From Micromonospora cremea (lineage in GTDB: Bacteria; Actinomycetota; Actinomycetes; Mycobacteriales; Micromonosporaceae), in assembly GCF_900143515.1 (NCBI RefSeq), contig NZ_FSQT01000002.1:3163501-3227500 (forward strand): a stretch of 64,000 nucleotides of DNA, in the 5' to 3' direction. Numbering within the stretch: position 1 is the stretch's first letter; each line of letters begins with the position of its first letter. Shown here one piece after another: positions 43,283 to 64,000 of this stretch. The notes under the pieces were generated by a model, which was not told the DNA's origin, made no database searches, and saw nothing but the letters and a program-made list of their open reading frames with translations. Made by a program: the position numbers and the translations under genes.

Positions 43283-43408
43283 ATGACATCAACAAATATC
43301 AATCACACGACGCCGACTGCCAGGTCGGTCCGCCCCTGTACGACCACGGTAGCCAAGATTGCGCACGTGCTACCTCACCATCGGAGGTGGGCCGTTGGCG
43401 ACAACTGA
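43283..43408 (+). CDS. Candidate small ORF overlapping the DUF2637 gene start
   Basis: The ATG at 43283 has GGAG seven bases upstream and codes 41 residues (MTSTNINHTTPTARSVRPCT ... PHHRRWAVGDN). Its stop lies 14 bases inside the DUF2637 gene, as in coupled gene pairs. The product resembles nothing I know; its main role may be translational coupling. Confidence 0.4.
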   Translation: MTSTNINHTTPTARSVRPCTTTVAKIAHVLPHHRRWAVGDN

Positions 43409-44357
43409 ACAGCGATCCCACGACGTCCCCGCCGATCAGCGGTCGGGGAGGGAGCGGCTGGAAAACCGCATCCAAGTGCTGATCATGTTGTTGATCGGCG
43501 GCGCGGCTGGCGCGGCCTCCTTCCGGCACGTGCATGACGTCGCGGCGGCACACGGCCAGCCGGGCTGGCTCGCCTGGGCCGACGCGGTCGTGCTGGAGTT
43601 GACGTCGATCGCTGCCGGTCTGGAACTGCGCCGCCACCGGCGCCTGGGCACCAGCGTCGCTTTCCCGGCGATTGTCCTGACAGTGGCGGTGTTCCTGTCC
43701 CTCGCCGCCCAGGTGGTGGAGGCGGAAGCGTCGGCGATCGGTTGGATCGCCGCCGCGCTGCCGGCGCTCGGCTTCCTGACGATGGTGAAGATCGCCCTCG
43801 GCCGCGCCGACCCCGCCCCATCCGAGCGCACCGGCCGCCCCACGCGGGTTGCCCCAGGACCGCCGCTGATCGAGGCCCGGGTCCCGGACACCCGCGAGCC
43901 GGTCCCCGCACCGCCACTGCCGGTCCCCACGAACACTGGCCCGGTCCGGGACTGCACCGCCCCGGTGGTCCCGGACCCGGTGGTCCCGGACCCGGTGGTC
44001 CCGGACCCGGTGGTCCCGGACCCGGTGGTCCCGGACCCGGTGGTCCCGGACCCGGTGGTCCCGGACCCGGTGGTCCCGGACCCGGTGGTCCCGGACCCGG
44101 TGGTGCCGGACCGACGGGTCGAGGGCACGCCGGTCCGGGACCGAGGCCCGGGGATCACCGCGCTGGTCCCGGCCGCCCGGAGCGCCGCCCGTACCCTGGA
44201 CGCCCGCGGAACGCCCCTGTCCCGCAAGGCCCTCGCCGGGCAGTTGCGCGCGGACGGGCATCAACTGTCCAACGCCACCGCCTCCACACTCGTGCGTGTC
44301 CTGCGCGGGGAGAGCACCTCACCCGCGCCGGACCTGTCACACCGGGAGGCCGCGTGA
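43395..44357 (+). CDS. DUF2637 (SpdB-like) membrane protein with PVVPD repeats
   Basis: The 320-residue protein has four hydrophobic helices (about residues 20-140: IQVLIMLLIGGAAGAASF, AVVLELTSIAAGLEL, FPAIVLTVAVFLSLAAQVVE, WIAAALPALGFLTMVKIAL), the DUF2637 form of spread proteins in actinomycete plasmids and integrative elements. A Pro-rich part follows with ten tandem PVVPD units, then a small HTH-like C-terminal domain (AARTLDARGTPLSRKALAGQ, LRADGHQLSNATASTLVRVL). The TTG start has GGAGGTGG just upstream. Expected role: intercellular spread or control of the element. Confidence 0.8.
   Translation: MATTEQRSHDVPADQRSGRERLENRIQVLIMLLIGGAAGAASFRHVHDVAAAHGQPGWLAWADAVVLELTSIAAGLELRRHRRLGTSVAFPAIVLTVAVFLSLAAQVVEAEASAIGWIAAALPALGFLTMVKIALGRADPAPSERTGRPTRVAPGPPLIEARVPDTREPVPAPPLPVPTNTGPVRDCTAPVVPDPVVPDPVVPDPVVPDPVVPDPVVPDPVVPDPVVPDPVVPDPVVPDRRVEGTPVRDRGPGITALVPAARSAARTLDARGTPLSRKALAGQLRADGHQLSNATASTLVRVLRGESTSPAPDLSHREAA
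43964..44113 (+). repeat. 15-bp tandem repeat, ten units
   Basis: Nine identical copies of GGTGGTCCCGGACCC and one imperfect copy run head to tail inside the DUF2637 gene and code PVVPD repeats. Identity of the units points to recent slippage expansion. Confidence 0.95.
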
Positions 44358-48890: not shown

Positions 48891-50437
48891 GCCGTCACCT
48901 CCAGCAGTTGCCGCCCCCACGGGGTCACAGGCTCCTCCCGTTCGGGCGTGAGCAGGCCGACCTGTACCGCCATCTCGGCGAGCTGGTGGACGCGCAGGCC
49001 GATGTTGCCGCTGCCCTCAGAAGAGTCGGCGAAGTACACCCCGTTGCGCTCGTGCAACCGACTGAACAGCGAGATGGTGCCGTCTGGGTTGAACGCCACC
49101 TTGCGCAGCGCCACCCGCCGCGACTGGGCGAGCATGTCGTCGACGAGCCGTCGGCCCAACTCGGCGACCGGGCGCTGGGCGAACTCCCGCTGCAGTTGCG
49201 CCACCCAGGTGGGGTCGAGATAGGTGGGCCGCCGCCCCTTGAATGTGCGCAGGGTGAGGCCGGTCAGCGAGTCGAGTCGGCGGGCTCCCAGCAGCAGCAA
49301 CGCCACGTCGGTGACCACGCCAGCGTCGTCACCGAATAGCGCGTCCTCGGCCGGCACTGGGTCGCCATGTCCGTCGACGACGGAAGGTAGGCCGGCCTCG
49401 AAGTCGGCAACGGAACCGCCGGGCAGCTGCCCAGCGATCCATTCGTGCAGGTGGCCCCGGGAGGCGTTCTCCGCATCGCGGACCTCGTTGACCAGCGCCG
49501 CCCAGAGGTGCCGCCACGCGCCGACGGAGTGGTGCCGGAGCACCACGCCTCGCCATGCGGCGGTGCGCTCCTCGCCAGCGAGCAGAGGGTCCTCCCGGGC
49601 CGCCGACCCGTATGCCACGCCGCTGGCGAACGCCTCCAGCCAGGTTTCCGCGTCGGGGTTGAGCTGCCAGGAGCGGGCCAAGATGCGCAGGGTGGCGCGT
49701 CTGGTCCGGTCGTCCCCGGTCCACGCCTCGGGAGTGTGTCGACCGTCAACGGTCGCGGTGAACACCTCGCTCAGCGGTTTCAGGTCGGGGGTGTCTTCGT
49801 CCTGTTGGAGGCTCAGCCGGCCGAGCGCCGCCGATGGGAGGGACAGGCCAGGCCGACGCTCGGCGGCCTCGATGAGCGGGGCATACATCTCAGTGATCTG
49901 CGGTGGACAGTGGTGCCGGCCGATGCGTAACGCACCGCCGTCCACCGCCACCGTGCCAAGCGCAACGCTGGGGCCGTTGTACTGTGACCAGAAGCCCCAT
50001 GATCGCGGCGAGTAGGAGCGGGCGCCGGAGGCGTCGGCCACCGAGAACTCGTTGCCGCCGTCGGGGACGAGTCGCGCTAACGCGTCCACGCCGTGAGCCA
50101 GGCCGCGAGGGTGATCTGACTCGTCGTACTCCTGCGAGATCCGCGCCATGCCGACCTCCGCGCGGCGGACGAGACGTCGGCACGCGTCGCGGTCCAGGTC
50201 GACGCGGTCGGCGTGGGCGGCGAGTGCCCAATAGAGGCTGTAGTACCGGGCGTAGCGGGTCACGGTTGAGACGCCGGGGACGAGCATGTCGACGGCGGCC
50301 ATCACCGGCGCCTCCACGGCGAGCGGGTACCGGCCGGCTCGGGCCAGCAGACCTGGCTCGCACCAGTCCGGTCCCTCGACGATTGACCGGGAGTCGGTCG
50401 CGGGTCCAGTCAACGCATCGATGGGTACGCTCGTCAT
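48887..50437 (-). CDS. Unknown 516-residue partner of the PLD-domain protein
   Basis: No domain is recognised. The protein is mostly helical, with conserved-looking segments APVMAAVDMLVPGVSTVTRY, ARYYSLYWALAAHADRVDLD, SYSPRSWGFWSQYNGPSVAL and a C-terminal winged-helix-like end (RVHQLAEMAVQVGLLTPERE, PVTPWGRQLLEV). It is the first gene of a two-gene operon and overlaps the PLD gene by four bases. The start chosen, ATG at 50435-50437, has AGGA eight bases upstream; another ATG lies three codons earlier. Its role may be sensing or DNA binding. Confidence 0.65.
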   Translation of the reverse strand: MTSVPIDALTGPATDSRSIVEGPDWCEPGLLARAGRYPLAVEAPVMAAVDMLVPGVSTVTRYARYYSLYWALAAHADRVDLDRDACRRLVRRAEVGMARISQEYDESDHPRGLAHGVDALARLVPDGGNEFSVADASGARSYSPRSWGFWSQYNGPSVALGTVAVDGGALRIGRHHCPPQITEMYAPLIEAAERRPGLSLPSAALGRLSLQQDEDTPDLKPLSEVFTATVDGRHTPEAWTGDDRTRRATLRILARSWQLNPDAETWLEAFASGVAYGSAAREDPLLAGEERTAAWRGVVLRHHSVGAWRHLWAALVNEVRDAENASRGHLHEWIAGQLPGGSVADFEAGLPSVVDGHGDPVPAEDALFGDDAGVVTDVALLLLGARRLDSLTGLTLRTFKGRRPTYLDPTWVAQLQREFAQRPVAELGRRLVDDMLAQSRRVALRKVAFNPDGTISLFSRLHERNGVYFADSSEGSGNIGLRVHQLAEMAVQVGLLTPEREEPVTPWGRQLLEVTA

Positions 50438-51130
50438 GGCGGCCATCCTGGCTCAGCGGGAGCGCGCAGGGAATGCCCCATCTAGGTCGATCGAGAGCCA
50501 ATCGGACCGGCCTGGGGTGACGAAATGGGCCTATGGGCCTTCGGAGAACAACCGAGATTGTCGTGCTGAACCAGGGCGGGGTCAACGTGCTGGAGCCGCT
50601 CGGCGAGATCGTGGGTGATCAGGTGCTGGTAGATGCCGCGGCCAAGATCGGTCACCCGGGGAAGCTAACCGGTTGACCGGTGGGCCGCTGCCCCTGCTGG
50701 AAGCCGCGCCTCTGCTCCAGCCCTGACCGGGTGGAGTCAGATCTCGGGCGGGATCTGCCTCGCCGCTGGTGGAACGAGCAGGCTGTCCCCGGACCCCGTA
50801 CGTAGGCGTCCGCTATTAGGCTGCGAGGACGAGGTCGCCCGCCAACCCTCGTTGCAGCCAACCTGTGGTTGCTCTGGGCAAAGTCAAGATCCAGGACTAT
50901 TGGCAGCGCATCACGGTCAGCGCGGACTGCCAAAACGGGTGAGTGACAAGGGGTCCCGCTGGCCGGACTTTTTCCGATATCGTGCGGTCACCGTCAGTGG
51001 GGAGGAACGGTGACTTGCCAAGCCAGTGCTTCCGCCTGTCTGCACACCCGACGTGGCGTCCAGGCTGATTGCTCTGCGCTCACCCGCCTCCCTGACGCCG
51101 AAGCTCCGCCTCGTTCAAGGATGCGCTGAC
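50438..51130. other. Intergenic stretch between two divergent defence-type operons
   Basis: It should carry promoters for both directions. A 47-codon ORF at 50532-50675 (ending VDAAAKIGHPGKLTG) reads protein-like but has no ribosome site or family; it may be a gene scrap. No strong palindrome was found. Confidence 0.35.
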
Positions 51131-51451
51131 ATGGCGTTCGCGAGCACAGACGGGCCGCTCGGTGACCCTTTTCCCGACGTCCGAGCAGGCAAGGTGCAGG
51201 GCCCGGACTTTCAGCGCGACTGCAAGTGGGACGATGCGCGCATCGCCAGCCTCCTTGCAACCATTACCCGCGGCTATTCCATCGGCGTCGTCATAACATT
51301 TGAGACCGGCGGCGACGGGTCTCGTTTCAAGCCCAAGCCGCCGCCCTGGGTCCCAGAGCCCCTGGGGCCTTCCGCGCGAGTTATCGGGGGGAACGCTCCG
51401 GTCTGCCCGGACCGTGTGCGCGTCGCCTACCCGCTGGAGTCGCCAGCGTGA
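51131..51451 (+). pseudogene. DUF262 (GmrSD-type) N-terminal fragment
   Basis: The frame contains GKVQGPDFQRDCKWDDARIA and SLLATITRGYSIGVVITFET, which match the start of DUF262 domains of GmrSD-type modification-dependent restriction enzymes (normally QLPDFQRGWVWDD...). The family motif DGQQR and the rest of the protein are missing; the frame ends after 106 residues. The stop overlaps the helicase start (GTGA), so the stump might still be translated and drive coupling. Confidence 0.65.
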
Positions 51452-52647
51452 CGAGGCCTGAAGTTACCCCAAGTCAATGGCCGCTCCGTCCCTGGCAGTC
51501 AGAGGCGCTGAGGGCGTGGCTACTGGCTGGTCGTCGAGGCGTGGTTGAAGTGGCTACAGGTGGGGGGAAAACGCGGTTCGCCTTGGCCTGCGTATCGGCC
51601 ATCGGGCCGGAGATCCGCTATGTCCAGATCATCGTGCCTACTATTGCTCTCGCGGATCAGTGGCACATCGCGCTTGAAGAGGATCTCCGTGTTGATAAGT
51701 CAGACGTAGCCTCCCTGTCGTCCCGGTCACGCGCCACAAACCTCCGCAGATTCAACGTGTCTGTCATCAATTCGGCGAGAGAGCTAGAGCCGACACTTTG
51801 GACCGACGGTAGGTTCTTAATCGTCGACGAGTGCCACAGGGCTGGGAGCCCTGATAACGCGAGGGCCTTAGGTGGCACAGCCTCAGCAACTCTCGGATTG
51901 AGTGCGACCCCCCACCGTCAGTACGACGACTACTTCGGGCAGGTGATTGAGCCTGCTCTAGGACCGATCATCTATCAGTACTCGATACAGCAGGCCACGC
52001 TTGACGGAGTGCTTTCTCCGTTCCATCTGACGAACGTTCGCGTCCGTTTGAACGAGGACGAGCAGCGGGAGTACGACGCTCTAACCCGGCGGATCGGATT
52101 AGCCTACAGGTCTGACTTGGTGTCAGGGGAAGAACGAAGGCCGCGTCTACTTATTCGGCGTGCCCGCGTGGCCAACGATGCGTTGGTTCGCATCCCCGTC
52201 GCTGTGAGGCTCCTCGAGCGGCACCGAGGAGAGCGGAGCCTAATATTTCATGAATCTATCGAGGCGGCGGAAGGGATCGCCGACCTGCTATCTACCCGAG
52301 GGCACTCAGTGACTCTATATCATTCCGGAATAGGTGCGTCTATGCGCCGTGAAAACCTCCGGCTCTTCCGGCGCGGAGTCTACGACGTCCTCGTTACCTG
52401 CAAGGCCCTAGATGAAGGCATTAACATTCCCGAGGTCAGGGTGGCCATAATCGCTGCAGCCTCAGCGAGTGATCGCCAACGAATCCAGCGACTTGGCAGG
52501 GTCCTCCGACCTGCTGAGGGGAAACAAGTTGCCGAGGTATACACCATTTACGCAACAGATGCCGAGCAGGAGCGCCTCCGCGCGGAGGCTGAGGGCCTAG
52601 CCGGAATTGCAGACGTGGACTGGATGCGAGTAGGTGCGCCTGCGTGA
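51448..52647 (+). CDS. SF2 DEAD/DEAH-type helicase
   Basis: The 399-residue protein has all main SF2 motifs: Walker A in EVATGGGKTRF (36-42), Walker B in IVDECHRAG (127-130), LSATPHRQ (motif III), LVTCKALDEGINIPE (motif V) and QRIQRLGRVLRP (motif VI). It is compact, without accessory domains, as in type III/BREX-like and defence helicases. It starts at a GTG overlapping the DUF262 stump and ends overlapping the putative nuclease gene (GTGA), so all genes of this operon are tightly coupled. Base composition is clearly lower in GC than the flanking chromosome. Confidence 0.9.
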   Translation: MTRPEVTPSQWPLRPWQSEALRAWLLAGRRGVVEVATGGGKTRFALACVSAIGPEIRYVQIIVPTIALADQWHIALEEDLRVDKSDVASLSSRSRATNLRRFNVSVINSARELEPTLWTDGRFLIVDECHRAGSPDNARALGGTASATLGLSATPHRQYDDYFGQVIEPALGPIIYQYSIQQATLDGVLSPFHLTNVRVRLNEDEQREYDALTRRIGLAYRSDLVSGEERRPRLLIRRARVANDALVRIPVAVRLLERHRGERSLIFHESIEAAEGIADLLSTRGHSVTLYHSGIGASMRRENLRLFRRGVYDVLVTCKALDEGINIPEVRVAIIAAASASDRQRIQRLGRVLRPAEGKQVAEVYTIYATDAEQERLRAEAEGLAGIADVDWMRVGAPA

Positions 52648-53423
52648 GACTCTATCAGGATGGCGAGTGGTTCGACGCCCTCCCCCCCGGGGCGCTTTAT
52701 GAGCATGAGTACGAGGGGATCGTCATGCAGCATCGAAACGACTTGTTCCCTGGATTCAAGGGTGCAAGATTTGATCCCGTCCTTGCGACTCAACTGGGGA
52801 ACGTGCAGCCCGACATGATTCTCATCGACCACGAATATCGATCGATGTTCGTGGTCGAGGTCGAGCTGGCGTCACATTCGCTAACTCGACATGTCCAACC
52901 GCAGATAGAGAAAATTGTGTCGGCTCGACTTGGCGAGCGTCATGCCGACTGGCTCTACTCGCGAGAGCCAGGATTTAACCAAGATCGACTTCGCGCTCTC
53001 TTTCGAGACGTTCCTCATTCCACAGTTCTTCTTGCAAATGGCCCTACGCCTCACTGGGACGATGGATTGCGGAGCCTGCCTGGCGTATACCGCGCTGTCG
53101 TGCAGGTGTTTAGGAGTGCACGTAATCGAACGATTCTCCGAGTCAACGGAGCGCAACCAGAAGGTCCGGGTGAGGTGGTAAGCGTCTTGTCGGCGGGAAG
53201 CGGGCCACTTAGGACGTCATACAAGGTGAGCGTACCCTCGTCTGTCGATGCATCTCTTGAAAAACTTGATGCTCACCTTGAGGATCAGCTAATACGATTC
53301 CACGTCAGGGTAATGGGGGCGGAGAAATACCTCTTCTCGCGCCCTGCCATTAACGTTCCTGCAGGTGGAGCCCTACTCCTCCGTTCGGCCGGCGGCAGCT
53401 ACAGAATCGAGATCATCGGATGA
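52644..53423 (+). CDS. Putative nuclease or effector, PD-(D/E)xK-like
   Basis: The 259-residue protein has an N-terminal part with QPDMILIDHEYRSMFVVEVE, in which Asp and the Glu-x-Glu sit on adjacent strands as in PD-(D/E)xK nucleases, except that the last Lys is replaced by Glu (VEVEL). The C-terminal part is strand-rich (FSRPAINVPAGGALLLRSAG). It sits between the helicase and the GHKL ATPase and overlaps both. The nuclease assignment is by pattern only; the family is not recognised. Confidence 0.55.
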   Translation: MRLYQDGEWFDALPPGALYEHEYEGIVMQHRNDLFPGFKGARFDPVLATQLGNVQPDMILIDHEYRSMFVVEVELASHSLTRHVQPQIEKIVSARLGERHADWLYSREPGFNQDRLRALFRDVPHSTVLLANGPTPHWDDGLRSLPGVYRAVVQVFRSARNRTILRVNGAQPEGPGEVVSVLSAGSGPLRTSYKVSVPSSVDASLEKLDAHLEDQLIRFHVRVMGAEKYLFSRPAINVPAGGALLLRSAGGSYRIEIIG

Positions 53424-54919
53424 AGATTGTTCTGGGAAACGAAGCGATCCGCTCTTGGCGCAGACTTTCGTATAAAGCTTGGTATGCGTTCGCGGAGTTT
53501 GTTGACAACTCAACTCAGTCTTTCTTTGACAATAAAGAAGTTTTGAAGCGAGTCCTCGCCGAGGAAGGGCGCCAACTCGAGGTCTACATAACGTATGACA
53601 GTAAGTTGAAGGTCATCCGGATCGTTGATAATGCGATGGGGATGAACGAGCAAGACCTCGTCAATTCGTTGTATATTGGCCGCCCCCCTCAGAATGTGAG
53701 CGGGCGGAGCGAGTATGGCTTGGGCATGAAGACGGCTGCGAGTTGGTTCGGGAACGTTTGGTCCGTGACAACCAAGAAGCTCGGGGAGCGCGAGGAGCTA
53801 TCAGTAGTTGTTAACGTGGATAAAGTCGCGGAGGGGCAAGATGATCTCGAGCTTCGGCGCCTAGAGAAGCCGGAGGATCAACACTACACGATTATCGAGA
53901 TCTCATTACTAAATCACTTCCTAAACGGCTGGGCAATCAAGAATACGCGCGAGTTTCTTGCCAGCATGTTCCGGGAAGACCTAAGAGATGGCTTCCTTGA
54001 CCTGCGTTTTAACGATAACAAACTGGAGACGCCATTCACGCCAGATGACAGTTCATTCCTCGTAAGGCTTGACGAAACGCCGTATAAGGCCATCGTCAAC
54101 ACCACAATTGGCGGTAAGCCGGTAACGGGATATGTCGGCGTGATGCGACCTGGAGTGGCCAGTCGCCGTTTGGCTGGCTTCAACGTTGTACGGCGAGGTA
54201 GGTGCGTCCAGGGTTGGCTTGACGCATGGAGGCCAGAGGACATCTTCGGCGCTGGCGGTCGCAATGACCTAGTCAACCAGCGACTCACGGGAGAGTTGGT
54301 AGTTGATGAATTCACGGCGAGTCACACAAAGGACGCGATCCTTTGGCAGAATGATGAAGAAGAGGAGTTGATTAAGTATTTGCAGCAGGTCGCAAATGAG
54401 CACGAGCTGATTCACGTGGCCCGTCACCATCGCGGCGAGGATGCCGTCGTGGCTAGTGCGAGTGAGCGGGAGGCGGCACGCGAGCAGATGCGAGCGACCA
54501 TGACGAGTCCGGACATGGTAGACGCCATTAACGTCGAAGAAGTACCACCAGCGGAGCTGGAAAGCATCGTCGCCGAGCCTCTTCAAGTCGCTGCGTCTGG
54601 CGACGAGCCGGACGTTACGATTCCGCTTGGGGGGGACCTTAGAGTGGAGATCTACTGGCACGAGGGCCACATAAACGACCCGTACTACACATACTGGATC
54701 GTGGAATCGGGGTCGCTGAAGGTGGCTATCAACGAGTCGCATCCTGGCTACACTGAGCTCGAAAACGCCGCTGCGATTGTTGCCTATTCGAAACACTGCG
54801 CATTCGATGCGATTGCTGAGTGGAAGTGTCGGCTAAAGCAATCATCCGTGCAGCCCGAGTCGGTCAAGCAGATCAAGGATCATTACTATCGAGTAAGCGC
54901 GGCCATTGAGGCGAAATGA
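53420..54919 (+). CDS. GHKL ATPase of the MutL/MORC/Hsp90 type
   Basis: The 499-residue protein carries the GHKL ATP-binding motifs: AEFVDNSTQ (Glu 26, Asn 30; N box), IRIVDNAMGMN (Asp 70, Gly 74) and YGLGMKTAA (100-106). A transducer-like domain follows, with VVRRGRCVQGWLDAWRPED and RNDLVNQRLTGELVVDEF. The C-terminal 150 residues are unassigned. Prokaryotic MORC-like GHKL ATPases have been described in restriction-type operons with helicases and nucleases, which fits here. The start overlaps the preceding gene by ATGA. Codon use is richer in A/T than in the flanking chromosome. Confidence 0.85.
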   Translation: MKIVLGNEAIRSWRRLSYKAWYAFAEFVDNSTQSFFDNKEVLKRVLAEEGRQLEVYITYDSKLKVIRIVDNAMGMNEQDLVNSLYIGRPPQNVSGRSEYGLGMKTAASWFGNVWSVTTKKLGEREELSVVVNVDKVAEGQDDLELRRLEKPEDQHYTIIEISLLNHFLNGWAIKNTREFLASMFREDLRDGFLDLRFNDNKLETPFTPDDSSFLVRLDETPYKAIVNTTIGGKPVTGYVGVMRPGVASRRLAGFNVVRRGRCVQGWLDAWRPEDIFGAGGRNDLVNQRLTGELVVDEFTASHTKDAILWQNDEEEELIKYLQQVANEHELIHVARHHRGEDAVVASASEREAAREQMRATMTSPDMVDAINVEEVPPAELESIVAEPLQVAASGDEPDVTIPLGGDLRVEIYWHEGHINDPYYTYWIVESGSLKVAINESHPGYTELENAAAIVAYSKHCAFDAIAEWKCRLKQSSVQPESVKQIKDHYYRVSAAIEAK

Positions 54920-55486
54920 GTGCTGGCGGAAGCGTCCGTAGTTGCGAACGGCTCTAGAGCTAACCGTCCTGCTCGGTTCCCCGACCCCGGCTCGTTTGAG
55001 GTAATCCCAGCATGCCGGCCTTCCGGCTTCTGGCGTATCCCCTAAGTTTCGGCTGAAGACCGGATGTCGTCAGGAAGAGGGAACCGCGCTAATCGGCAGC
55101 CCACTTGGACACGTCACACGTGGTGCTCCGCCCTGACGTCACACCGTCGGGATGCGCCGGCTCCGTCGTGCGAGGTTGGCGGGAGGGTTCTAATCCCGTT
55201 TCCCGGCCGAAGGAGGTCAGGCTGACCCTCGGGGGCAAGCAGAGCCTCTGAGAGGTTCGGCTACCCTCGACCGTGGTCCTCGACCCCGTCGCGGGCCACC
55301 CGGCGCTGCGTGCCACAAGAGCGGGTAGCTCAGCGTCTCCCGCAGCATCACCGGCCGCAACGCCTTAATTGGGTGGTTTGGGCGCTGCTCGGCTTCGCGT
55401 CGCGGCTTCTTCGCGTGTCGGTCACGCAGACCTGTCGTACCGTTCCCCCAGAATGACAGCGGTGCAAGTTTAGGGAGGTAGTGGAC
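54920..55486. other. Intergenic stretch between the helicase/ATPase and ParB/methyltransferase operons
   Basis: No gene is convincing in either strand. GGGAGG immediately before 55480 serves the next gene. A short tRNA T-arm-like sequence near 55190 was considered and rejected. Confidence 0.4.
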
Positions 55487-56362
55487 GTGTCGAGAGATGC
55501 CCCCGTCCTGGCGAACGATGAAGGTACGGACCGACGGGAGCGGATCGACGGGGAACAGGCCATTTCCGAAGGTCCTGCGATGCACGTCCAGAAGATCCCC
55601 GTCGCACTGATTCGTCCGGAAGACGGCCTTGGTCGGAAGCGTGAGCCCGACGGCCACCGTGAGTTGCGCCAGTCGATCGAGCAGTTTGGGGTCTTGACGC
55701 CGGTGACGGTCCGCGTAGCGCCCGACGGCTCCGGCGATTACCTCCTCATCAAGGGCCAGGGGCGCACCCTCGCTTGCCGGCTCTTAGGCATCGATCAGAT
55801 CCCGGCCATCGTCGTCGACGACGATTTCGCCGAGAACGAGAAGGTACAGCAGTTCCTGGTCGAGAATGTGGCGCGACTTCGGATGCGCCCGATAGACCGC
55901 GCTCTATTGATCACTCGCGCTCGACAAAACGGCGAGGAGACAGCGGCCGTCGCGAAGCGCTTTGGCGTGTCGGCCGCCACGGTGAGACGGCTCGAAGTGC
56001 AACTCGACGGCGCCAGTAATCGGGAGGTCACTGCGCTCAAGCAGGGGAATGTCAACCTAACGTTGCACGCCACCATCACCCGCTACGTGGAAGCCGCTGA
56101 GCGGGCCGACGTTGTTGCGGCTCTGGCGCCGTACTCGCTGAGAGCCAAGGAGACCGCGGCACTCTTTGAAGCGTTGGGCTGGCGAGACTTGGTCGAACTG
56201 GGCAGCGCTCATCGCATCCAGAGGTTGAAGCTATTGGTCTGGGCGTGTGACACCCTCAGCAATTTGCCGCCCGGTTCGATCCACGAGCGGCTCAGCCATC
56301 TCGCTGCATTGCTGCCGATCGACTTTGGCGGCGGCCCGCGTACAAGGGCGGTGGCCCAATGA
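55487..56362 (+). CDS. ParB-like nuclease/DNA-binding domain protein 1
   Basis: The 291-residue protein has a ParB/Srx N-terminal domain (VQKIPVALIRPEDGLGRKRE, LRQSIEQFGVLTPVTVRVAP, DYLLIKGQGRTLACRLLGID) with the GQGRTLAC phosphate-binding pattern. A helical HTH part follows (AKRFGVSAATVRRLEVQLDG). It is not linked to a ParA gene, so chromosome partition is unlikely; ParB-fold proteins in modification systems bind nucleotides or DNA. The GTG at 55487 has GGGAGG eight bases upstream. It overlaps the next gene by four bases. Confidence 0.82.
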   Translation: MSRDAPVLANDEGTDRRERIDGEQAISEGPAMHVQKIPVALIRPEDGLGRKREPDGHRELRQSIEQFGVLTPVTVRVAPDGSGDYLLIKGQGRTLACRLLGIDQIPAIVVDDDFAENEKVQQFLVENVARLRMRPIDRALLITRARQNGEETAAVAKRFGVSAATVRRLEVQLDGASNREVTALKQGNVNLTLHATITRYVEAAERADVVAALAPYSLRAKETAALFEALGWRDLVELGSAHRIQRLKLLVWACDTLSNLPPGSIHERLSHLAALLPIDFGGGPRTRAVAQ

Positions 56363-57282
56363 AGCTTGTTAATCTCGACCCGGCGCAGCTGGTCGTTAGT
56401 CACGAACTGAGCCGGTCCGGCAGCGCCAAGCAATTTGAGGATCGCCTGCGCTCCTCGATCGAAGAAATCGGCCTTGCAGAGCCGATCAAGGTGGCACCAT
56501 TACCGAGTGGTCAGTATTTAGTGGTCGATGGTACGATGCGCCTCCGCGCCATCACGGCGATTCGGGATGCAAACCCCGACGCCTTCAAAACCATTGCGGC
56601 TTACGTTACCGACTACGAGCGTCGGTTTGAGATCCGTTATCAGACGGACATCTATCAAGACCTTTTGCCGAGTCAGTTGGCTGCCCTTGTCGAGCACCTT
56701 CACAAAACCGAACGGGTCAGGAAGACGGATATCGCCCGCTACATCGGCGTTTCGCCTGCGACTCTGCGCAACTACACCGGTCTCTGGCGACTACTCCAGA
56801 GGGGTGGGTTGTTCGCCAAAATTGTTGAGCTGATGGATGTTGGCGTAATCCCGTCGTCCAACCCCTACGCATGGTTACGGCTAACGAGTGACGGCCTAAG
56901 GTGCGTGCTCAAGGACAGCTTCTGTGACGGCGAATCTATCGATGCGTGGGTTCAAGGGCGTATCTCGGCTGCTCGACAAGGCAACACTCTGCGGTTCACC
57001 ACCAACTTCGTAGAGGCTGCTACCGGCGGGCTGGAGCCACGGTTCTACCGACAAGATGAAGATCTGCGCTCGGTGAAACGAGACTTGGGGCTCCGGCGTG
57101 CCGGAGATCCTCAACTCTTCGACGTACCGGTCACGCCCGCGGTGAAGTCCAAGACTGAGCGCAACTCTAGGGTGAAACGCGATGTGAAAACGGCGGTCCG
57201 CCACCTGTCGAATGTCACTAGGGAGTCTCGCGAACCCGTGTTGCAGACCGCCGCTCGCTCATTAAGGAAGTATCTGCAGTGA
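56359..57282 (+). CDS. ParB-like domain protein 2
   Basis: The 307-residue protein has the same domain order as its neighbour: ParB-like fold (VNLDPAQLVVSHELSRSGSA, LRSSIEEIGLAEPIKVAPLP, GQYLVVDGTMRLRAITAIRD), then HTH (ARYIGVSPATLRNYTGLWRL). The glycine pattern is GTMR rather than GQGR, so the two are diverged and may work as a heteropair. It overlaps the upstream and downstream genes by four bases. The C-terminus is basic (SKTERNSRVKRDVKTAVRHL), fitting DNA contact. Confidence 0.82.
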   Translation: MKLVNLDPAQLVVSHELSRSGSAKQFEDRLRSSIEEIGLAEPIKVAPLPSGQYLVVDGTMRLRAITAIRDANPDAFKTIAAYVTDYERRFEIRYQTDIYQDLLPSQLAALVEHLHKTERVRKTDIARYIGVSPATLRNYTGLWRLLQRGGLFAKIVELMDVGVIPSSNPYAWLRLTSDGLRCVLKDSFCDGESIDAWVQGRISAARQGNTLRFTTNFVEAATGGLEPRFYRQDEDLRSVKRDLGLRRAGDPQLFDVPVTPAVKSKTERNSRVKRDVKTAVRHLSNVTRESREPVLQTAARSLRKYLQ

Positions 57283-58661
57283 GCACCGCAGCTATGGATT
57301 GGCTCGAGGACGCCTTCTTTGAGGAGCCGGAGCGAGACTCGATCGATGGGGGCACGACCACAGAGGGCCACCTCTGGCATGTGGCGAATCCCCGTTGGGG
57401 CCATTCGATGCACACCATGTGCTCATATCACGGCATGTTCCCCGCCAAGCTCGCCCACTACTTCATTCAGCGCTACTCGCGGCCGGGCGATGTCATTCTC
57501 GATCCGTTCAGCGGGCGGGGGACGGTGCCGCTGCAGGCCCGCGTGGAAGGCCGGCGCGCGCTTGGCAACGACCTGAGTCCGCTTGGACACGTTCTGTCAC
57601 GGGCAAAGGCGAACCCGCCTTCGTGGATCGCTGTGAACAAGTTCCTAGACAACCTTGAGAAGCGCTACAAACGAGCAACTCAAGCCGAACCGGACGTTTC
57701 ACCCGACATCAGGATGCTTTACCATCCCAATACGCTGCGACAGATTTGTTATCTACGGGATGCGCTGCTTCAGCGACATCTCGACGAGTGGACTCCGGAA
57801 GCGGCGATGGTTGCTGGTTCGCTGGCCGGCATCATGCATGGTTCCTTCAGACGAGACGGAACGTCTCAATACCTGAGTATCAGCATGCCCAACACCTTCA
57901 GCATGTCGCCGACGTACGTCGAGAAGTTTATCCGCGAGAAGAACCTCATCGCTCCAGATCAAGACGTATTTGAGCGCCTGCGCGATAAGCTGGCACGGCT
58001 CTACCTTGATACCGTAGGCGGCCCAGCAGGAAAAGTTTTCTTCGCTGATGCGCCAGGACTGATGCAAAGCGGTGGTATCCAGCCCCACACGGTGGATCTT
58101 ATCGTAACGTCGCCTCCGTATCTGCAGGTCGTTAATTATGGCACAGCGAACTGGATTCGGCTCTGGCTCCTAGGCATTGACGATGTTGGCCGTGAGCGAG
58201 GCCACGGCCGGCAGAAACTCGACGCCGAACTTGACCACCGCCACAACTACGACTCATACCGCACCTTCCTACTGCGCACGCTCCTAGGCATCCAGCATGT
58301 GCTGAAGCGCGATGGCGTAGCCGCAGTTGTCATCGGCGACGTCGCTGATCCCGGCAAGGAGGCACTGCCACTTGCAAAGAAAATCTGGGACGACGTCGGG
58401 GCGAAAACAGAGCTCCGACTCATCAGTTTGATCGGCGACCGGCTCCCAGTCGAGAACAAAGTTAGCCGTATCTGGGGCGGCACCAAGGGCCAGGCTACTG
58501 AGAGGGATTGCATCCTCGTCCTGACGCACCGGGGCGGGGAACCATGGGATGGTCCAGATGCCATTGATTGGGACGAGCCGTACAAGGACGGCGGCCCCGA
58601 CGCGGCTCATGCTCGCTTGAAGTCGAGATTCAGCACCAGCGACGAACCCACGGCAGTGTGA
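57279..58661 (+). CDS. DNA methyltransferase (SPPY-type amino-methyltransferase)
   Basis: The 460-residue protein has SAM motif I in ILDPFSGRGTVPLQA (75-82) and catalytic motif IV TSPPYLQVVNY (277-281), the SPPY form usual for N4-cytosine (sometimes N6-adenine) methylation of DNA. Motif I precedes motif IV. The 190 residues between them may include a target-recognition part, and the C-terminus has VIGDVADPGKEALPLAKK. It overlaps the second ParB-like gene by four bases (GTGA), so the three are one operon. It is expected to protect self DNA for an adjacent restriction activity. Confidence 0.88.
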   Translation: MSTAAMDWLEDAFFEEPERDSIDGGTTTEGHLWHVANPRWGHSMHTMCSYHGMFPAKLAHYFIQRYSRPGDVILDPFSGRGTVPLQARVEGRRALGNDLSPLGHVLSRAKANPPSWIAVNKFLDNLEKRYKRATQAEPDVSPDIRMLYHPNTLRQICYLRDALLQRHLDEWTPEAAMVAGSLAGIMHGSFRRDGTSQYLSISMPNTFSMSPTYVEKFIREKNLIAPDQDVFERLRDKLARLYLDTVGGPAGKVFFADAPGLMQSGGIQPHTVDLIVTSPPYLQVVNYGTANWIRLWLLGIDDVGRERGHGRQKLDAELDHRHNYDSYRTFLLRTLLGIQHVLKRDGVAAVVIGDVADPGKEALPLAKKIWDDVGAKTELRLISLIGDRLPVENKVSRIWGGTKGQATERDCILVLTHRGGEPWDGPDAIDWDEPYKDGGPDAAHARLKSRFSTSDEPTAV

Positions 58662-59309
58662 AGTATGTCTGTACGTCGTCGACTCGTTCCACCGACTTCG
58701 ATCCTCTAATATGCCAACGCACCACGTTTCTGGCATTCGAACCGAACAGCAAAGGAGGCCGACGAGAGCGCTGGACCTCATCCAGCAGTACCGTCGGTAC
58801 CTGATTTATCCGAGTCAATCGATTAGGTGACAGAGGGCGCGCTTGCGGCTGAACCGCCGGCGAGGAGAAACCGTTGGCAGCCAAGCCCCAGACGAGTTAG
58901 TGCTTCGGTCACCGGGCCGGATTTACCTCATCGAGCAACTTGATCAAGTGATCCTCCGCGTGCAGTAGGGGCATCGGGGCACATCCAAGCCCGCCAAGGG
59001 GGCTTATCGAACCTTGCCCCGGATGCGAGCTCACGCACCTCTCGGGGATCGCTGCGCGTTGTTCTTTCAGGTAGCGCGTAGGTCATGGGCGTGTTTGGTG
59101 GCGTCCAGCATCTGCCTGAGCATCAAGAACGGCAAACTTTTTCAATGATCAGGACGATCATCGACATCATCGTTCGCGGCGGGGTCTGTGGAAGCGCGCG
59201 ATTTTCGGCTGTGGGGCAGGAACGGTGGTGGGTCGGTCCTTGAGTGGCCGGTTGTGGGGCGGCATCCTGACGTCGGTGTGGCTGCAACCCGACCAATGAC
59301 CGTGTTCCT
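58662..59309. other. Stretch without a convincing gene between the methyltransferase and IS remnants
   Basis: Only short, low-quality frames are present. TGATC-AGGAC-GATCA near 59146 is a small inverted repeat. This is where a lost gene of the ParB/methyltransferase operon could have been. Confidence 0.4.
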
Positions 59310-59690
59310 GCTGCGACGGATCTGCGGCCTACGCCGAGGCAATCCGCGGCGCGCCGCAGGCGATGCAGGTCAGCGACCGGTGGTATCTGTGGCACAACCT
59401 GGCGAAGGCGGTCGAGAAGCTCGTGGTCGCGCACAGTGCCTGCTAGCGCCAGACCCACCCCCAACGGGACCGGCCGCTGGATGAATGCACCCGCGAGCGG
59501 CAATCTGTGCACGCCCTGCTCGACCAAGGCGTCGGTCTACTGGCATGTGCCCGCCGGCTGGGCTGGGCGCTGAACACCGTCGAACGCTACGCCGGCGCAG
59601 CCGCGGCCGAAGACCTGCAGCGTCCGCCGCTACCGCGAAACGCTGGTCGACCCGTTCCCAAGTCGTTGCAAGGTCACGTCCGTCCTGGTG
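59310..59690 (+). pseudogene. ISL3-family transposase remnant
   Basis: One frame gives CDGSAAYAEAIRGAPQAMQV, SDRWYLWHNLAKAVEKLVVA and HSAC, then TAG (59444) where a Trp would be expected, then THPQRDRPLDECTRERQSVH, ALLDQGVGLLACARRLGWAL and NTVERYAG. This is the central part of ISL3 transposases. Both ends are missing and a frameshift follows near 59640. Confidence 0.75.
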
Positions 59691-60252
59691 GTGTAGAGCA
59701 GATCGAGGGCGCGTCGCCGGACGTGTTGCAGGCGATGGTACGCGTTCGCGCAGGCGTTGATGTCCGTCGAGGCGGACGCGATCTGCGGTGCTGGGCTACG
59801 GGCAGCGAAGCGACGAATGGGTAAACTCCCGCAACGGCTACCCTGATGCGGGAGTGGGACACCCGCGGCGGAACGATCGACCTGGCGCTCCCGAAGCTGC
59901 GGCAGGGCTCGAACTTCCCGGACTGTTTGCTGACCCATCGCCGGCAGGCTCTGGTTCCCGTCGAGAGGGGCCTCGTATCTGCTCGGGGTGTCAACCAGGC
60001 GGGTGAAAAAACGGATCGAGCATCTCGGCATTCGGCAGATGCCGAGTCACAGGTGTCGGAAATGGCGGCCCACCTAGACGCCCAGGTCGAGGCGTTCCGC
60101 AACCGGCTGCTGGACTCAGGGCATTACACGGCGCGGATGGACCTGTTGACGATGAAGGTCCGCGAAGCCGCCGCACCGTCAACGTCCACGCCCTGAGCGC
60201 TTCGGGGTCAACGCCGACGGGCAACGCGAGGTGCTGAGCCTGGACGTGGCTC
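59691..60252 (+). pseudogene. IS256-family transposase remnant
   Basis: Joined over at least three frames, the plus strand reads QALMSVEADAICGAGYGQRS, EWDTRGGTIDLALPKLRQGS, MAAHLDAQVEAFRNRLLDSG and GVNADGQREVLSLDV, all from the N-terminal half of IS256 transposases. The catalytic half is absent. It begins where the ISL3 remnant ends, so two mobile elements landed in the same gap. Confidence 0.75.
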
Positions 60253-60551
60253 TGTTCGCGGATCTCGCTCAGTAGGCGGCCCACCGCCACGATGGGGTTT
60301 TCGGCCAGGCGACGGCGCTAGTGATCGCGGGGGATTGTGACCCTGACAGAAGGGGCTGGTCGGCGCAAGGCGGACAATTTTGCCGAACGCATGTCTGAAG
60401 GCGGACCGTAGGTCCGACGAAACCAGGACTACTGGACATGGCGTACGTTGTGTCCGGCGTAGAAGGCTGTGATCATCTCGGTATTCGGCGAGCCCGAAGC
60501 GTCGGTGAGCGGCCCGCGCGCGCGGAGCCTTCGGGGGAGGGAGGGGCAGCG

Positions 60552-62603
60552 TTGGCGCTGCGGGACCTCGGACTTCGGCCTGCGTACCGGTCGGGCCGCG
60601 ACATGCTGCTCGATGATTTCTACGTGCCCTGCCTCCAGGAGGCGGTGCTCTATGACCGCGCGGTGGGGTACTTCAGCAGCACGCTGTACCACGTCGTTGC
60701 TTTGGCCTTCTCCGATTTCGTCCGGCGGGATGGCCGGATGCGGCTGATCTGTTCGCCCGCGCTGGCGCCCGAGGACTTCGCGACGATGAAAGAGGCGGAC
60801 GAGATCGGCCGCTACGCCCAGTCAACGATCCGCGCCGACCTGCAGATGCTGCTGACACGTCCTGAGGCGGTACCGGCCACCCGACTGCTGGCGACCCTGA
60901 TCGCCAACGAGATCATTGACGTGCGCATCGCCTTCACCGACAACCCGAGCGGGATTTTTCACGACAAGCTGGGCATTTTCGAGGACACAGAGGGCAAGCG
61001 CGTCAGCTTCGTCGGCAGCGCCAACGAGACGTGGCGGGCGTGGGGTCTCAACCATGAGTCCTTTGAGGTGTTCTGCAGCTGGAAGAACGAGCCGGAACTT
61101 CTCCGCACCCGCGATCACGTCGATAACTTCCGGCGGCTATGGCGGAGCCAAGAGCCGGGTGTGCGCATCTCACATTTGGACCAAGTCACCCGCGAGCAAC
61201 TCGTCGCGATCGCCGATGACGACCTGGACCATGCGATTAACGCCGTCCGGTCGCATCAGTTGAGTCGCCGGGCCCAGCCGACCGGGCGACCACTCATGGA
61301 CCACCAGCGATTGGTGCTCGAGGACTGGGAGGCGAAGGGCCACCACGGCATTGTCAACTTCGCGACCGGTGCCGGTAAGACGCTGACCGCCATCGCAGGC
61401 GTCAAACGCTGGACCAGCGGTGGCGGCGCCACGGTAATCCTGACGCCGGGCCGCGACCTGCACGCCCAGTGGATACGTGAAATCGAGATGGAGCTCCCAG
61501 ACGCGCAGATCCTGCCCGCAGGCGCAGGCAGCGACAAGGCCGACTGGCAGCGGTTACTGCCCATCTTCAGCGCGCCGGGCAATTCGGCCGAGCACCGCCG
61601 GGTCGTGGTAACGACTAATCACACCTTTGCCAGTGACGATTTCCAGCGCCGGCTCAAAAGCGGCGATCACTTGCTGATCGTTGCTGATGAGATGCACCGG
61701 GCGGGCAGCCCCCGGGTGCTGAATGTGCTGGAGCAGACCATGTGCGGCGCCACCCTCGGCCTGAGCGCCACGTTCCGCAGGCAGTTCGATGAGGACGGCA
61801 CGAACCGGCTGATGGACTTCTTTGGCCCTGTGTTGATGCCAGTGATCGGCCTGGCCGAAGCGCTCATGCTCGGCCTGCTCGTCCCGTACGACTACCGCCT
61901 CCACGAACTGCGGCTAGACGACGACGAGATTGAGCAGTACGAGAACCTTACGAAGCGGATCGGACAGATGGTCAGCCAAGGCGCGTCGGTCAACGACGCC
62001 AGCAGCCCGCTACAGATGCTCCTGATCCGACGCGCACGAATACTAAAGCAGGCCCGCGGCAAGGTGCCAATGGCAGCCGACATCCTGCAGCGCGAGTACC
62101 AGGACGGCGATCGCTGGCTTGTCTACTGCGATGACGTGAAACAGATGAAGGCGCTGACCAAGGAGTGTCTCGCCGCCGGACTACCTGCACTTGAGTTTTA
62201 CTCCGAGATGACAAGTGGCCGTGACGAAGTCATCCGCAGCCTGGGCAAGTATGGCGGCATCGTCATTGCAATCCGCTGCCTCGATGAAGGTATCGACATC
62301 CCGGTTACCGACCACGCCCTCATTCTCGCTAGCTCGACCGTGGAACGCGAGTACATCCAGCGACGCGGTCGCGTCCTCCGTCAGGCCCCTGGTACGAACA
62401 AGGTCAGCGCCGAGGTTCATGACCTCATGCTTGTCGATCAGATCGGCGGAGCACTCACCAAAAGTGAAGCCGTGCGCGCCTTGGAATTCGTGCGGTTAGC
62501 GCGAAATTCCGCAGCCCGAGAGCGGCTAAAGGTGATCGTTTCCCTGAGCCAAGACCCCGTCACGTTGCCTGACTGGATCGACTACGAAGAAGAGAGCGAC
62601 TGA
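60552..62603 (+). CDS. Fused PLD-nuclease/SF2 helicase
   Basis: The 683-residue protein has an N-terminal PLD-like domain (LRDLGLRPAYRSGRDMLLDD, VLYDRAVGYFSSTLYHVVAL, then FHDKLGIFEDTEGKRVSFVG with H137 and K139 and SANET), and a helicase: NFATGAGKTLTA (Walker A, 271-277), VADEMHRAG (379-382), LSATFRRQFD and EYIQRRGRVLRQAP. Single-PLD-motif helicases of this kind act as dimers in restriction and defence loci. The TTG at 60552 follows GGGAGGGAGGGG and begins where homologues begin; an in-frame ATG at 60438 lacks a ribosome site. Two bases separate it from the next gene. Confidence 0.85.
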   Translation: MALRDLGLRPAYRSGRDMLLDDFYVPCLQEAVLYDRAVGYFSSTLYHVVALAFSDFVRRDGRMRLICSPALAPEDFATMKEADEIGRYAQSTIRADLQMLLTRPEAVPATRLLATLIANEIIDVRIAFTDNPSGIFHDKLGIFEDTEGKRVSFVGSANETWRAWGLNHESFEVFCSWKNEPELLRTRDHVDNFRRLWRSQEPGVRISHLDQVTREQLVAIADDDLDHAINAVRSHQLSRRAQPTGRPLMDHQRLVLEDWEAKGHHGIVNFATGAGKTLTAIAGVKRWTSGGGATVILTPGRDLHAQWIREIEMELPDAQILPAGAGSDKADWQRLLPIFSAPGNSAEHRRVVVTTNHTFASDDFQRRLKSGDHLLIVADEMHRAGSPRVLNVLEQTMCGATLGLSATFRRQFDEDGTNRLMDFFGPVLMPVIGLAEALMLGLLVPYDYRLHELRLDDDEIEQYENLTKRIGQMVSQGASVNDASSPLQMLLIRRARILKQARGKVPMAADILQREYQDGDRWLVYCDDVKQMKALTKECLAAGLPALEFYSEMTSGRDEVIRSLGKYGGIVIAIRCLDEGIDIPVTDHALILASSTVEREYIQRRGRVLRQAPGTNKVSAEVHDLMLVDQIGGALTKSEAVRALEFVRLARNSAARERLKVIVSLSQDPVTLPDWIDYEEESD

Positions 62604-62605
62604 AC

Positions 62606-62869
62606 ATGGTCCAACCCGAGAACGACGAAGCCGGCCATGGCCGGGAAGGTGCGTTGGCGGCCCTGAACGAGGTCGCCACCGATCCCGAGGTAGTCAAGCA
62701 GTTCGGCACGGCGGCTGGCGCGTTCGAGCCAGAGGACTACCAGCAACTGATTGCTCTTGCCTGGCGCCACCAGTTCGACGATGACCGGACCAAGTTCAAG
62801 CGCGACCTCAGAGCGCTCCAGGAGCACGTCAGCCAGCGTATCCTCGACCGGGCGGAGTTGTCCGAATGA
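62606..62869 (+). CDS. Small unknown protein between the PLD-helicase and the DndD-like ATPase
   Basis: The 87-residue acidic, helical protein (ALAALNEVATDPEVVKQFGT, AWRHQFDDDRTKFKRDLRAL, QEHVSQRILDRAELSE) matches no family I know. It starts two bases after the helicase stop and overlaps the next gene by ATGA, so it is an integral operon member, perhaps an adaptor of the ATPase. Confidence 0.7.
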   Translation: MVQPENDEAGHGREGALAALNEVATDPEVVKQFGTAAGAFEPEDYQQLIALAWRHQFDDDRTKFKRDLRALQEHVSQRILDRAELSE

Positions 62870-64000
62870 GCCTGCGATTCGAGAGCGTCAGCCTCAAGAA
62901 TTTCGGTCCATACCGTGAGATCGACACGCTCAACCTAGAGACTGATCCGCACGCGCCCATCGTCGTGATCCACGGCGAGAACACCCTTGGAAAGACCAGT
63001 CTATTCCGGGCGCTGCGGTGGTGTCTGTACGGTAGCCCCGAATCGGGGAGGACGCCCGCCCAAGCCGCCCGGCATCTGTCCGAGTACATGAACCGCCCGG
63101 CGTGGAGAGACGGCGAGACTGACATGCAGGTATGCATGCAGTTCACAGCAAATGGGCACAAGTACCGGCTCGTGCGCACCGCGAGGTTCGAAGGCGGACC
63201 GCCAAAGGTGTCCGCCGACCTTCGGGTGGACTCAACGGTCGTTCAGCAGGCTTCAATCGAGGCGGAGATCGGACGTCTGCTGCACCCGCAAATCTCCGAG
63301 TTTTTCCTGTTTGATGGTGAGTTGCTCAAGGACTTCTACGACCGACTCAACACGGATCGTGAGAGAGACCTCCTCCGGGACAGCATCGACAACGTGCTCG
63401 GGATTCCGGCGTTGCAGCTGGCCGAGCGGGACGTTTCGACTCTGACCGAGCACGCAATTCAGAGGCAGGCTAAGGCACTTAAAAACAAGAAAGACGTCGA
63501 GAACGCGCGCAAGCAAATTCGCGAATTGAAGTCCAAGCAGGAGAGCTTGGATAAGGACCGAAAAGAGATGGAGCACGCGCTCGGCAAGGCCAAGGCAGCC
63601 CTGGAAGACGTCAAGGAGCGTATTGCGGGAGTCGAAGAGCTGAAGGCCGATGCTCGTGAGATGGAGGGGTTGGAGGTCCTGATCGCGGGCGGAAAGCAGG
63701 AAGAGGACCAGATCCGTGAGGACATGCGACGGTTGCTCACAACTGGCTGGCTCGCACCTGCCGCCGGCAAGCTCAACGGAGCCTTGCAGCGAGTCGTGGC
63801 CAAGAACGACGCGGCCCAGCAGCAGCAGAAGGCAATCCAGGTCGCCCGTGATCGTGTCGACGTGCTGCAGAAGCAGATCCAGGGTGGAATCTGTCCGGCC
63901 TGTCAACAGGAACTGCCGCCGCCGGACGAGTCGACCGAAAATGATTTGGCGAGAGCCGAAGCCGATCTGAAGCAGTTGAAGGAATCGGCAGGGGACGGGC
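62866..64000 (+). CDS. DndD/Rad50-like SMC-type ATPase (cut by window edge)
   Basis: The visible 378 residues begin MSLRFESVSLKNFGPYREID with a P-loop in VIHGENTLGKTSLFRALRWC (37-50). They also have EFFLFDGELLKDFYDRL, a hallmark of DndD-like ATPases, then a long coiled coil (KNKKDVENARKQIRELKSKQ and on) that turns at a zinc-hook-like CPACQQELPPP. DndD in phosphorothioation systems is of this type, but no dndC or sspABCD-type gene is visible in the window. The C-terminal half (second coiled coil, Walker B) lies beyond the edge. Confidence 0.88.
   Translation, partial: MSLRFESVSLKNFGPYREIDTLNLETDPHAPIVVIHGENTLGKTSLFRALRWCLYGSPESGRTPAQAARHLSEYMNRPAWRDGETDMQVCMQFTANGHKYRLVRTARFEGGPPKVSADLRVDSTVVQQASIEAEIGRLLHPQISEFFLFDGELLKDFYDRLNTDRERDLLRDSIDNVLGIPALQLAERDVSTLTEHAIQRQAKALKNKKDVENARKQIRELKSKQESLDKDRKEMEHALGKAKAALEDVKERIAGVEELKADAREMEGLEVLIAGGKQEEDQIREDMRRLLTTGWLAPAAGKLNGALQRVVAKNDAAQQQQKAIQVARDRVDVLQKQIQGGICPACQQELPPPDESTENDLARAEADLKQLKESAGDG

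Follow-up and report, generated by a model that had tools for sequence, protein, structure and literature searches.

What does a Pbe restriction module read in a genome in which no gene for DNA phosphorothioation is found? This question, posed in the excerpted text of the papers on Pbe (Xiong et al. 2019, PMC6459918; Rakesh et al. 2024, PMC10853773), is raised by two operons on the plus strand of contig NZ_FSQT01000002.1 of Micromonospora cremea, which we analyzed in a window of 64,000 nucleotides (positions 3,163,501 to 3,227,500 of the contig; Table 1). A first-pass annotation of the window had described here six genes in two tight plus-strand operons, the first coding for two ParB-like proteins (ParB1 and ParB2) and a DNA methyltransferase and the second for a PLD-helicase, an 87-aa protein, and a DndD-like ATPase. 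This layout was confirmed, as all six are intact open reading frames (ORFs) and neighbors within each operon either share 4 bp or stand 2 bp apart. The second operon is the named PbeABCD or CxC ABC-DndE system, judged from its sequence, and the first, here called the triad, is probably a modification module with exchangeable restriction partners, of which PbeABCD is one.

The first-pass annotation had stated that no named system matches the gene set, which fails for the second half, where the PADLOC models of PbeA and PbeC were matched at the scores given in Table 1. The PbeA match spans residues 3-656, Pfam assigns PLDc_2, ResIII, and Helicase_C to the protein, and the motifs HDKLGIFED, GSANET, TGAGKT, and DEMH are present; in a sequence search of the PDB, the helicase part alone was matched. 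PbeC is an ABC ATPase of the DndD/CxC clade with a zinc-hook-like CPAC from residue 343, predicted to bind zinc, and gave no match in a PDB sequence search at E 1e-4. The 87-aa protein has 105 homologues at E<=0.001 and no family match among the PADLOC, Pfam, and NCBIfam models, and was assigned as PbeB by its position and size. The 124-aa product of the gene after pbeC is a predicted DndE-like PbeD, a close orthologue having been modelled with a DndE-like fold.

PbeA, PbeB, PbeC, and a PbeD-like protein occur in the same order, with PADLOC models matching A and C, in the archaeal DndCDEA-PbeABCD system (Xiong et al. 2019, PMC6459918), from which the genome of the window differs by having no detected DndC and instead a methyltransferase and two ParB-like genes. 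According to the excerpted text of that paper, candidate base-modifying genes lie within 10 kb of 155 of the 320 solitary PbeAC, and Pbe inhibits replication without cleavage. In that of Rakesh et al. (2024, PMC10853773), Pbe is equated with the CxC-DndE system and is frequently found with cytosine methylases, and these systems resemble the locus in their HKD-SF2 protein, small protein, zinc-hook ABC ATPase, and DndE-like protein, as well as in an adjoining methyltransferase with permuted motif order. In contrast to the locus, a ParB pair goes unmentioned in this text, where a ParB gene is named only as DndB, and a cassette common to GHKL modules is not described. The Pbe part and the pairing of Pbe with a DNA methyltransferase are thus known from these two publications, as far as their excerpts go.

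DndC was found neither in the own genome (0/1) nor in any of the Pbe-bearing genomes (0/13, own included), in a search that is without a positive control because 0/14 control genomes passed the cut-off, and 7 of the 13 Pbe-bearing records have no completeness values. The two PAPS-reductase-family genes of the own genome are, by their neighbors, CysH (a sulfite-reductase-like gene is adjacent) and CysD (adjacent to a CysN-like GTPase); Ssp was covered solely through this PAPS-reductase search in the own genome, no search being made with Ssp's own models. Since DndC was not found and the PAPS-reductase genes are CysH and CysD only, the Pbe of the window is taken not to be the phosphorothioate-coupled form, and Pbe working with phosphorothioation was set aside; judged by DndC and the PAPS-reductase family, the dndCDEA modification genes that define the phosphorothioate-dependent Pbe (Xiong et al. 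2019) were not found in the own genome.

In order to identify triads elsewhere, a genome collection described as covering 84,980 species was scanned with the methyltransferase alignment expressed as two peptide patterns. The 95 matching stretches yielded 35 distinct loci, 16 actinobacterial and 19 other. The order ParB1-ParB2-methyltransferase was constant in 16/16 actinobacterial loci, with enzymes 62-68% identical to that of the window; distinct triads number 15, because those of L006 and L018 are identical. Each of the two halves is a conserved unit. No ParB1 or ParB2 match was obtained by tblastn in the 19 distant loci (L020-L038, 36-45% identity), five of which lie on contigs shorter than 7 kb, and these loci were left out of the triad counts. 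A plasmid search for the methyltransferase gave two records, both distant.

The methyltransferase was aligned with 24 of its 120 listed homologues, and PbeB with 20 of 105. DPFSGRGT starts at residue 75 and TSPPY at residue 277 in the alignment of 25 methyltransferases, so that motif I precedes motif IV, and the motif-I region gives matches to structurally characterized methylases, among them PvuII and CcrM. The enzyme is predicted to modify N4-cytosine or N6-adenine; TSPPY favors N4. ParB1, read from a GTG at 55487 that has GGGAGG 8 nt before it (the mechanical ORF starts at 55481), aligns with Spo0J, Noc, and KorB, members of a family of CTPases, over ParB_N and the helix-turn-helix (HTH) region, and is placed in that family by sequence. 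It retains the E-N-x-x-R motif of the ParB family and reads GQGRTLA at the position of the GERRxRA box, whereas the more divergent ParB2 departs from both boxes; the pair further differs from the family in having a methyltransferase partner gene. No DndB model appeared among the PADLOC (E<=0.01) or NCBIfam (E<=0.1) matches of ParB1 and ParB2, the presence of such a model in the libraries being unchecked.

Homologues of the two halves repeatedly adjoin in other genomes, so the possibility that they are never co-located is refuted. Pbe was present within 10 kb of the triad in 8/16 loci (L004, L005, L007, L008, and L014-L017) and a GHKL ATPase gene in 9/16 (L005, L006, L009-L013, L018, and L019), absences of either being soft because some of the fetched flanks are short; Pfam confirms two of the nine GHKL genes, the other seven being called by clustering with those two. 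Every triad locus (16/16) has one or both of these neighbors, and L005 has both. In Demequina activiva (L008) ParB1, ParB2, the methyltransferase, PbeA, an 88-aa protein, PbeC, and a 129-aa protein are encoded contiguously and in the order of the window, with a PbeC just 28% identical to that of the window. The single system proposed by the first-pass annotation is supported in so far as the halves recur together; the triad also accompanies GHKL genes, and the halves in the window do not share one history.

Around Pbe itself, a methyltransferase gene lies no more than about 8 kb from a Pbe module in all eight Micromonosporaceae genomes in which PbeC was found (six in a set of 300 and two more in a set of 160). 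These enzymes comprise two of the triad type, five of a TSPPF type, and one of a D12 type (those of the window, L050, and L053 were confirmed by Pfam, the remainder called by motif and similarity). Plasmid NZ_CP015441 (L065) carries, by annotation and order, a methyltransferase, a helicase, a small protein, an ATPase, and a small protein in one row; a sigma-like HTH gene then follows. Homologues of PbeB and of the methyltransferase were observed on equal-sized contigs in five cases against 0.5 expected among the best 105 and 120 listed proteins. Loci L055 and L057 were left out, being, by length, on the same contigs as L005 and L012. Two different Pbe modules stand about 1.4 kb apart in L053 (genome G086); a TSPPF methyltransferase and a DUF1643-like gene accompany one of them, and for the other no separate methyltransferase was seen in the fetched flanks.

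Set against Pbe near 8/16 triads, PbeC at E<=1e-40 was found in 1/394 class-wide genomes (the own one), a comparison that overstates the surprise, to a degree not quantified, because defense genes cluster anyway. Among the 300 family genomes, the methyltransferase (E 1e-50) was found in three (one a 41% relative), PbeC in six, and both in two, on the same contig; with the own genome excluded this is 1/2 vs 5/299, or about 3% by hypergeometric arithmetic done by hand. On the PbeC tree, built from a small sample chosen by similarity and carrying a long-branch warning, triad-paired Pbe fall together and the tree sorts by methyltransferase type with two changes, a number as low as which was reached in 0/500 shuffles.

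Table 1. Coordinates of the features discussed, in window numbering; all lie on the plus strand.
Feature	Position	Strand	Basis or remark
SF2 helicase (Rad25/XPB- and PbeA-helicase-like, without PLD domain)	51448..52647	+	Helicase_C/ResIII
Predicted PD-(D/E)XK restriction-fold nuclease, 259 aa	52644..53423	+	Predicted fold; 4-bp overlap with both neighbors
GHKL ATPase (MORC/paraMORC-like)	53420..54919	+	HATPase_c_3 53 bits
Conserved motif TCTGNCAGAATSACAnnnnTGYAAS	55444..55468	+	Just before the triad, ahead of the ribosome-binding site
ParB1	55487..56362	+	ParB_N domain and HTH; PF02195 E 5e-11; Spo0J/Noc/KorB alignment
ParB2	56359..57282	+	Divergent ParB-like with HTH; parB_part E 3e-6 (below cut-off); ParB 4umk profile E 0.007
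DNA methyltransferase	57279..58661	+	N6_N4_Mtase 60 bits; motif I ahead of TSPPY
Decayed ISL3 transposase remnant	~59309..59653	+	blastn 68-69% to annotated ISL3 transposases
Decayed IS256 transposase remnant	~59696..60250	+	blastn 67-72% to annotated IS256 transposases
PbeA (HKD/PLD nuclease and SF2 helicase)	60552..62603, TTG start	+	PADLOC PbeA 630 bits
PbeB, 87 aa	62606..62869	+	Place and size, between PbeA and PbeC
PbeC, 657 aa	62866..64839 (window edge at 64000)	+	PADLOC PbeC 1025 bits, full length
PbeD, DndE-like, 124 aa	64842-65216, past the window edge	+	2 bp after PbeC; same genome

If the triad is a modification module shared among restriction modules, its operon would mark host DNA, probably at one target common to Actinobacteria. 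PbeC and the DndE-like PbeD would scan DNA, PbeA would act as the helicase-nuclease, and PbeB would restrain the complex, roles that are taken from proposals in the Pbe literature (Rakesh et al. 2024, PMC10853773, in excerpt). The complex would leave methylated DNA and attack unmethylated DNA. Such a triad would not be dedicated to Pbe, since the same triad type stands beside GHKL genes elsewhere, and that of the window, located between a GHKL module and Pbe, may protect against both.

Several findings weigh against this interpretation. The triad and Pbe are separated in the own genome by 1.9 kb with two insertion sequence (IS) remnants, which the first-pass annotation had correctly read as ISL3 and IS256 scraps: blastn finds both, while Pfam recognizes IS256 (PF00872, E 1e-11 over 59846-60196) and gives no match for ISL3. 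The 16/16 figure depends on the two-peptide-pattern scan and counts the identical L006 and L018 triads, the DndC result comes from searches in which no control passed the cut-off, and a close Pbe, that of G086 (PbeC 68% identical), has no triad in the fetched flanks. Finally, triad and Pbe proteins do not co-vary (rho 0.01-0.29, p 0.07-0.40; nine loci, low power), which also fits loose neighbors in a defense island. Each half does co-vary internally, with Spearman coefficients of 0.49-0.63 for the triad proteins (17 loci; permutation p 0.0017, the lowest value that 600 permutations can give) and 0.95 for the pairwise identities of PbeA and PbeC (10 loci), and the partners therefore seem to have been reshuffled.

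The trees bear on the same point. On the triad tree, the Pbe vs GHKL-only label needs four changes, and four are forced by well-supported branches; 42/500 (Pbe) and 30/500 (GHKL-only) shuffles were equally low, so that clustering by partner type is weak. The window and L005 (Micromonospora sp. H61) are neighbors on both trees, with PbeC 94% identical and each triad protein 67-68% identical, and hence the halves of the window do not share one common history. With no co-variation and at least four partner changes on the triad tree, a dedicated co-evolution of triad and Pbe is unsupported.

The strongest competing explanation concerns the ParB pair, which could be a transcriptional autoregulator of the modification operon with a DndB-like function, leaving the methyltransferase alone to set specificity. 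We regard this as a serious contender, if short of probable, and grade as about equal the two readings in which the pair targets the enzyme (the first-pass annotation had proposed that it guides or senses modification) or regulates the operon. Both ParBs have HTH regions, by weak matches, and Rakesh et al. (2024, PMC10853773, in excerpt) describe DndB as a transcriptional regulator of the ParB superfamily; the missing ParB matches at the distant methyltransferase loci, several of them on short contigs, point the same way. A conserved motif before the triad also hints, at the level of sequence, at autoregulation. Its 15-bp block TCTGNCAGAATCACA, which contains TCTG-N-CAGA, has a single plus-strand copy 89-139 bp ahead of the ParB1 core in 15/17 loci at up to 3 mismatches of 14 fixed letters; the window copy (55444-55458) has three mismatches. 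For the longer form CAGAATSACANNNNTGYAAS, the copy at 55444-55468 is the single match in the own genome at no more than one mismatch. The best 10-mer upstream of ParB1 was shared by 7/16 loci vs at most 3 in shuffles (k-mer counts without L018, whose triad equals that of L006 over the compared columns), and no perfect inverted repeat was shared there by more than 2/16 loci. Neither the sequence upstream of PbeA (nine loci) nor that downstream of the methyltransferase (16 loci) gave a comparable shared word. Because the motif directly precedes the ribosome-binding site, it may act as a promoter element, as an operator, or as both, and a core promoter would not speak for a regulator. Moreover, L005 and L019 gave no match to the block at up to 3 mismatches (the L005 stretch is visibly similar), and two distinct ParB-like proteins co-varying with a methyltransferase exceed what simple autoregulation needs.

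A second alternative places the working partner of the triad in the operon at 51448-54919, with Pbe as a separate neighbor. The first-pass annotation had the genes of its region (55487..64000) right and set its start too late, as this operon ends just 0.6 kb before the triad on the same strand. Its helicase reached 83 bits with XPB and 195 bits with dnd_restrict_1, both under the cut-off, and 255 bits with the helicase part of PbeA. With a GHKL ATPase, an SF2 helicase, and a nuclease predicted by fold, and a methyltransferase close by, it has the composition of the MORC/paraMORC restriction-modification operons (Iyer et al. 2008, PMC2292703), from which it differs in that 'ParB' has 0 occurrences and no adjoining Pbe is present in the excerpted text of that paper; the excerpt of Bellieny-Rabelo (2021) mentions once that a ParBc domain lies close to paraMORC-like genes.

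In favor of such a partnership, 8/19 distant loci have homologues of the same nuclease and GHKL protein directly 3' of a methyltransferase 36-39% identical to that of the window, a GHKL neighbor accompanies more than half of the actinobacterial triads, as counted above, and homologues of the GHKL protein (84%) and of the methyltransferase (72%) occur on equal-sized contigs (8130) from the same source, one case beyond the own genome among the best 120 listed proteins each, with about 0.7 expected by chance. Near the methyltransferase in 15/19 distant loci is a 748-918-aa protein of one cluster, for which one of three scanned was a GHKL match, below the cut-off. However, the eight loci, all of which we take from their record titles to be Bacteroidota, gave no ParB match, the GHKL protein of the window belongs to another subfamily than those beside actinobacterial triads (one direct match, 26%), and its gene was found in 1/270 family genomes, the own one only. 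We consider this partnership unlikely.

That the locus is a set of unrelated defense genes assembled by mobile elements is the least probable explanation, and a distinctly improbable one, for while the IS remnants at the junction, the further defense genes and fragments downstream, and the unequal divergence of triad and Pbe in the L005 sister locus would suit it, it is opposed by Pbe near half of the triads against its class-wide rarity, by PbeC in 2/3 methyltransferase-bearing family genomes vs 6/300 overall, and by the sorting of the sampled PbeC tree by methyltransferase type.

Returning to the triad as a module with exchangeable partners, one may speculate, as a tentative extension, that the near-uniform cassette is a common self-mark across Actinobacteria into which SMC-like Pbe (ABC-DndE) and GHKL/MORC machines plug interchangeably, both at once in the present locus, with the ParB pair coupling the mark to operon control. 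If one cassette does serve two restriction machines that are unrelated to each other, modification and restriction would be parts that recombine freely and not pairs that co-evolved, and restriction-modification would become a new role for two ParB-fold proteins. With no DndC found, an intact PbeABCD, and one adjoining modification cassette, the locus is a compact test bed. A ParB pair with Pbe, or a cassette common to Pbe and GHKL modules, is not mentioned in the open-licence literature searched, to which supplements and most subscription papers do not belong, and the gene set is undescribed in the excerpted text of a 2025 review and a 2026 BREX paper; within this literature, the novel elements are the ParB pair and the two-partner cassette.

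Further genes lie around the locus. After the Pbe operon, past the window edge, a GmrSD/DUF262-like gene is found in two ORFs, a broken type IV-like gene (L003:3261-4952, window 65761-67452); GmrSD_N matches the first piece with 104 bits and the PDC-M55C model matches both. On the minus strand follow a 1333-aa DUF4011-helicase-MTES_1575 nuclease (L003:12480-16481; PADLOC PDC-S37, 894 bits), a further defense gene of the island, and a DUF1643-like protein (L003:16653-17288), homologues of which adjoin methyltransferase/Pbe genes in L051 and L053 and follow the triad methyltransferase in L015. Divergent from the upstream helicase operon, two proteins are encoded at 46260-50446 (minus strand), a PLD-like one of 886 aa (PLDc_2 below cut-off) and one of 519 aa, both possible further parts of the upstream module; the 519-aa protein has no Pfam, NCBIfam, or PADLOC match. 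Searches of window positions 40000-64000 gave 0 Rfam matches and 0 tRNAs. An ORF at 43359-44357 (plus strand) contains a run of a short VVPDP-type repeat, which is seen in several frames. Sigma-factor-like HTH proteins of about 200 aa adjoin the GHKL gene in three of the triad loci (L009:5117-5701, L005:7066-7674, and L012:5400-5984), one called above and two below the Pfam cut-off.

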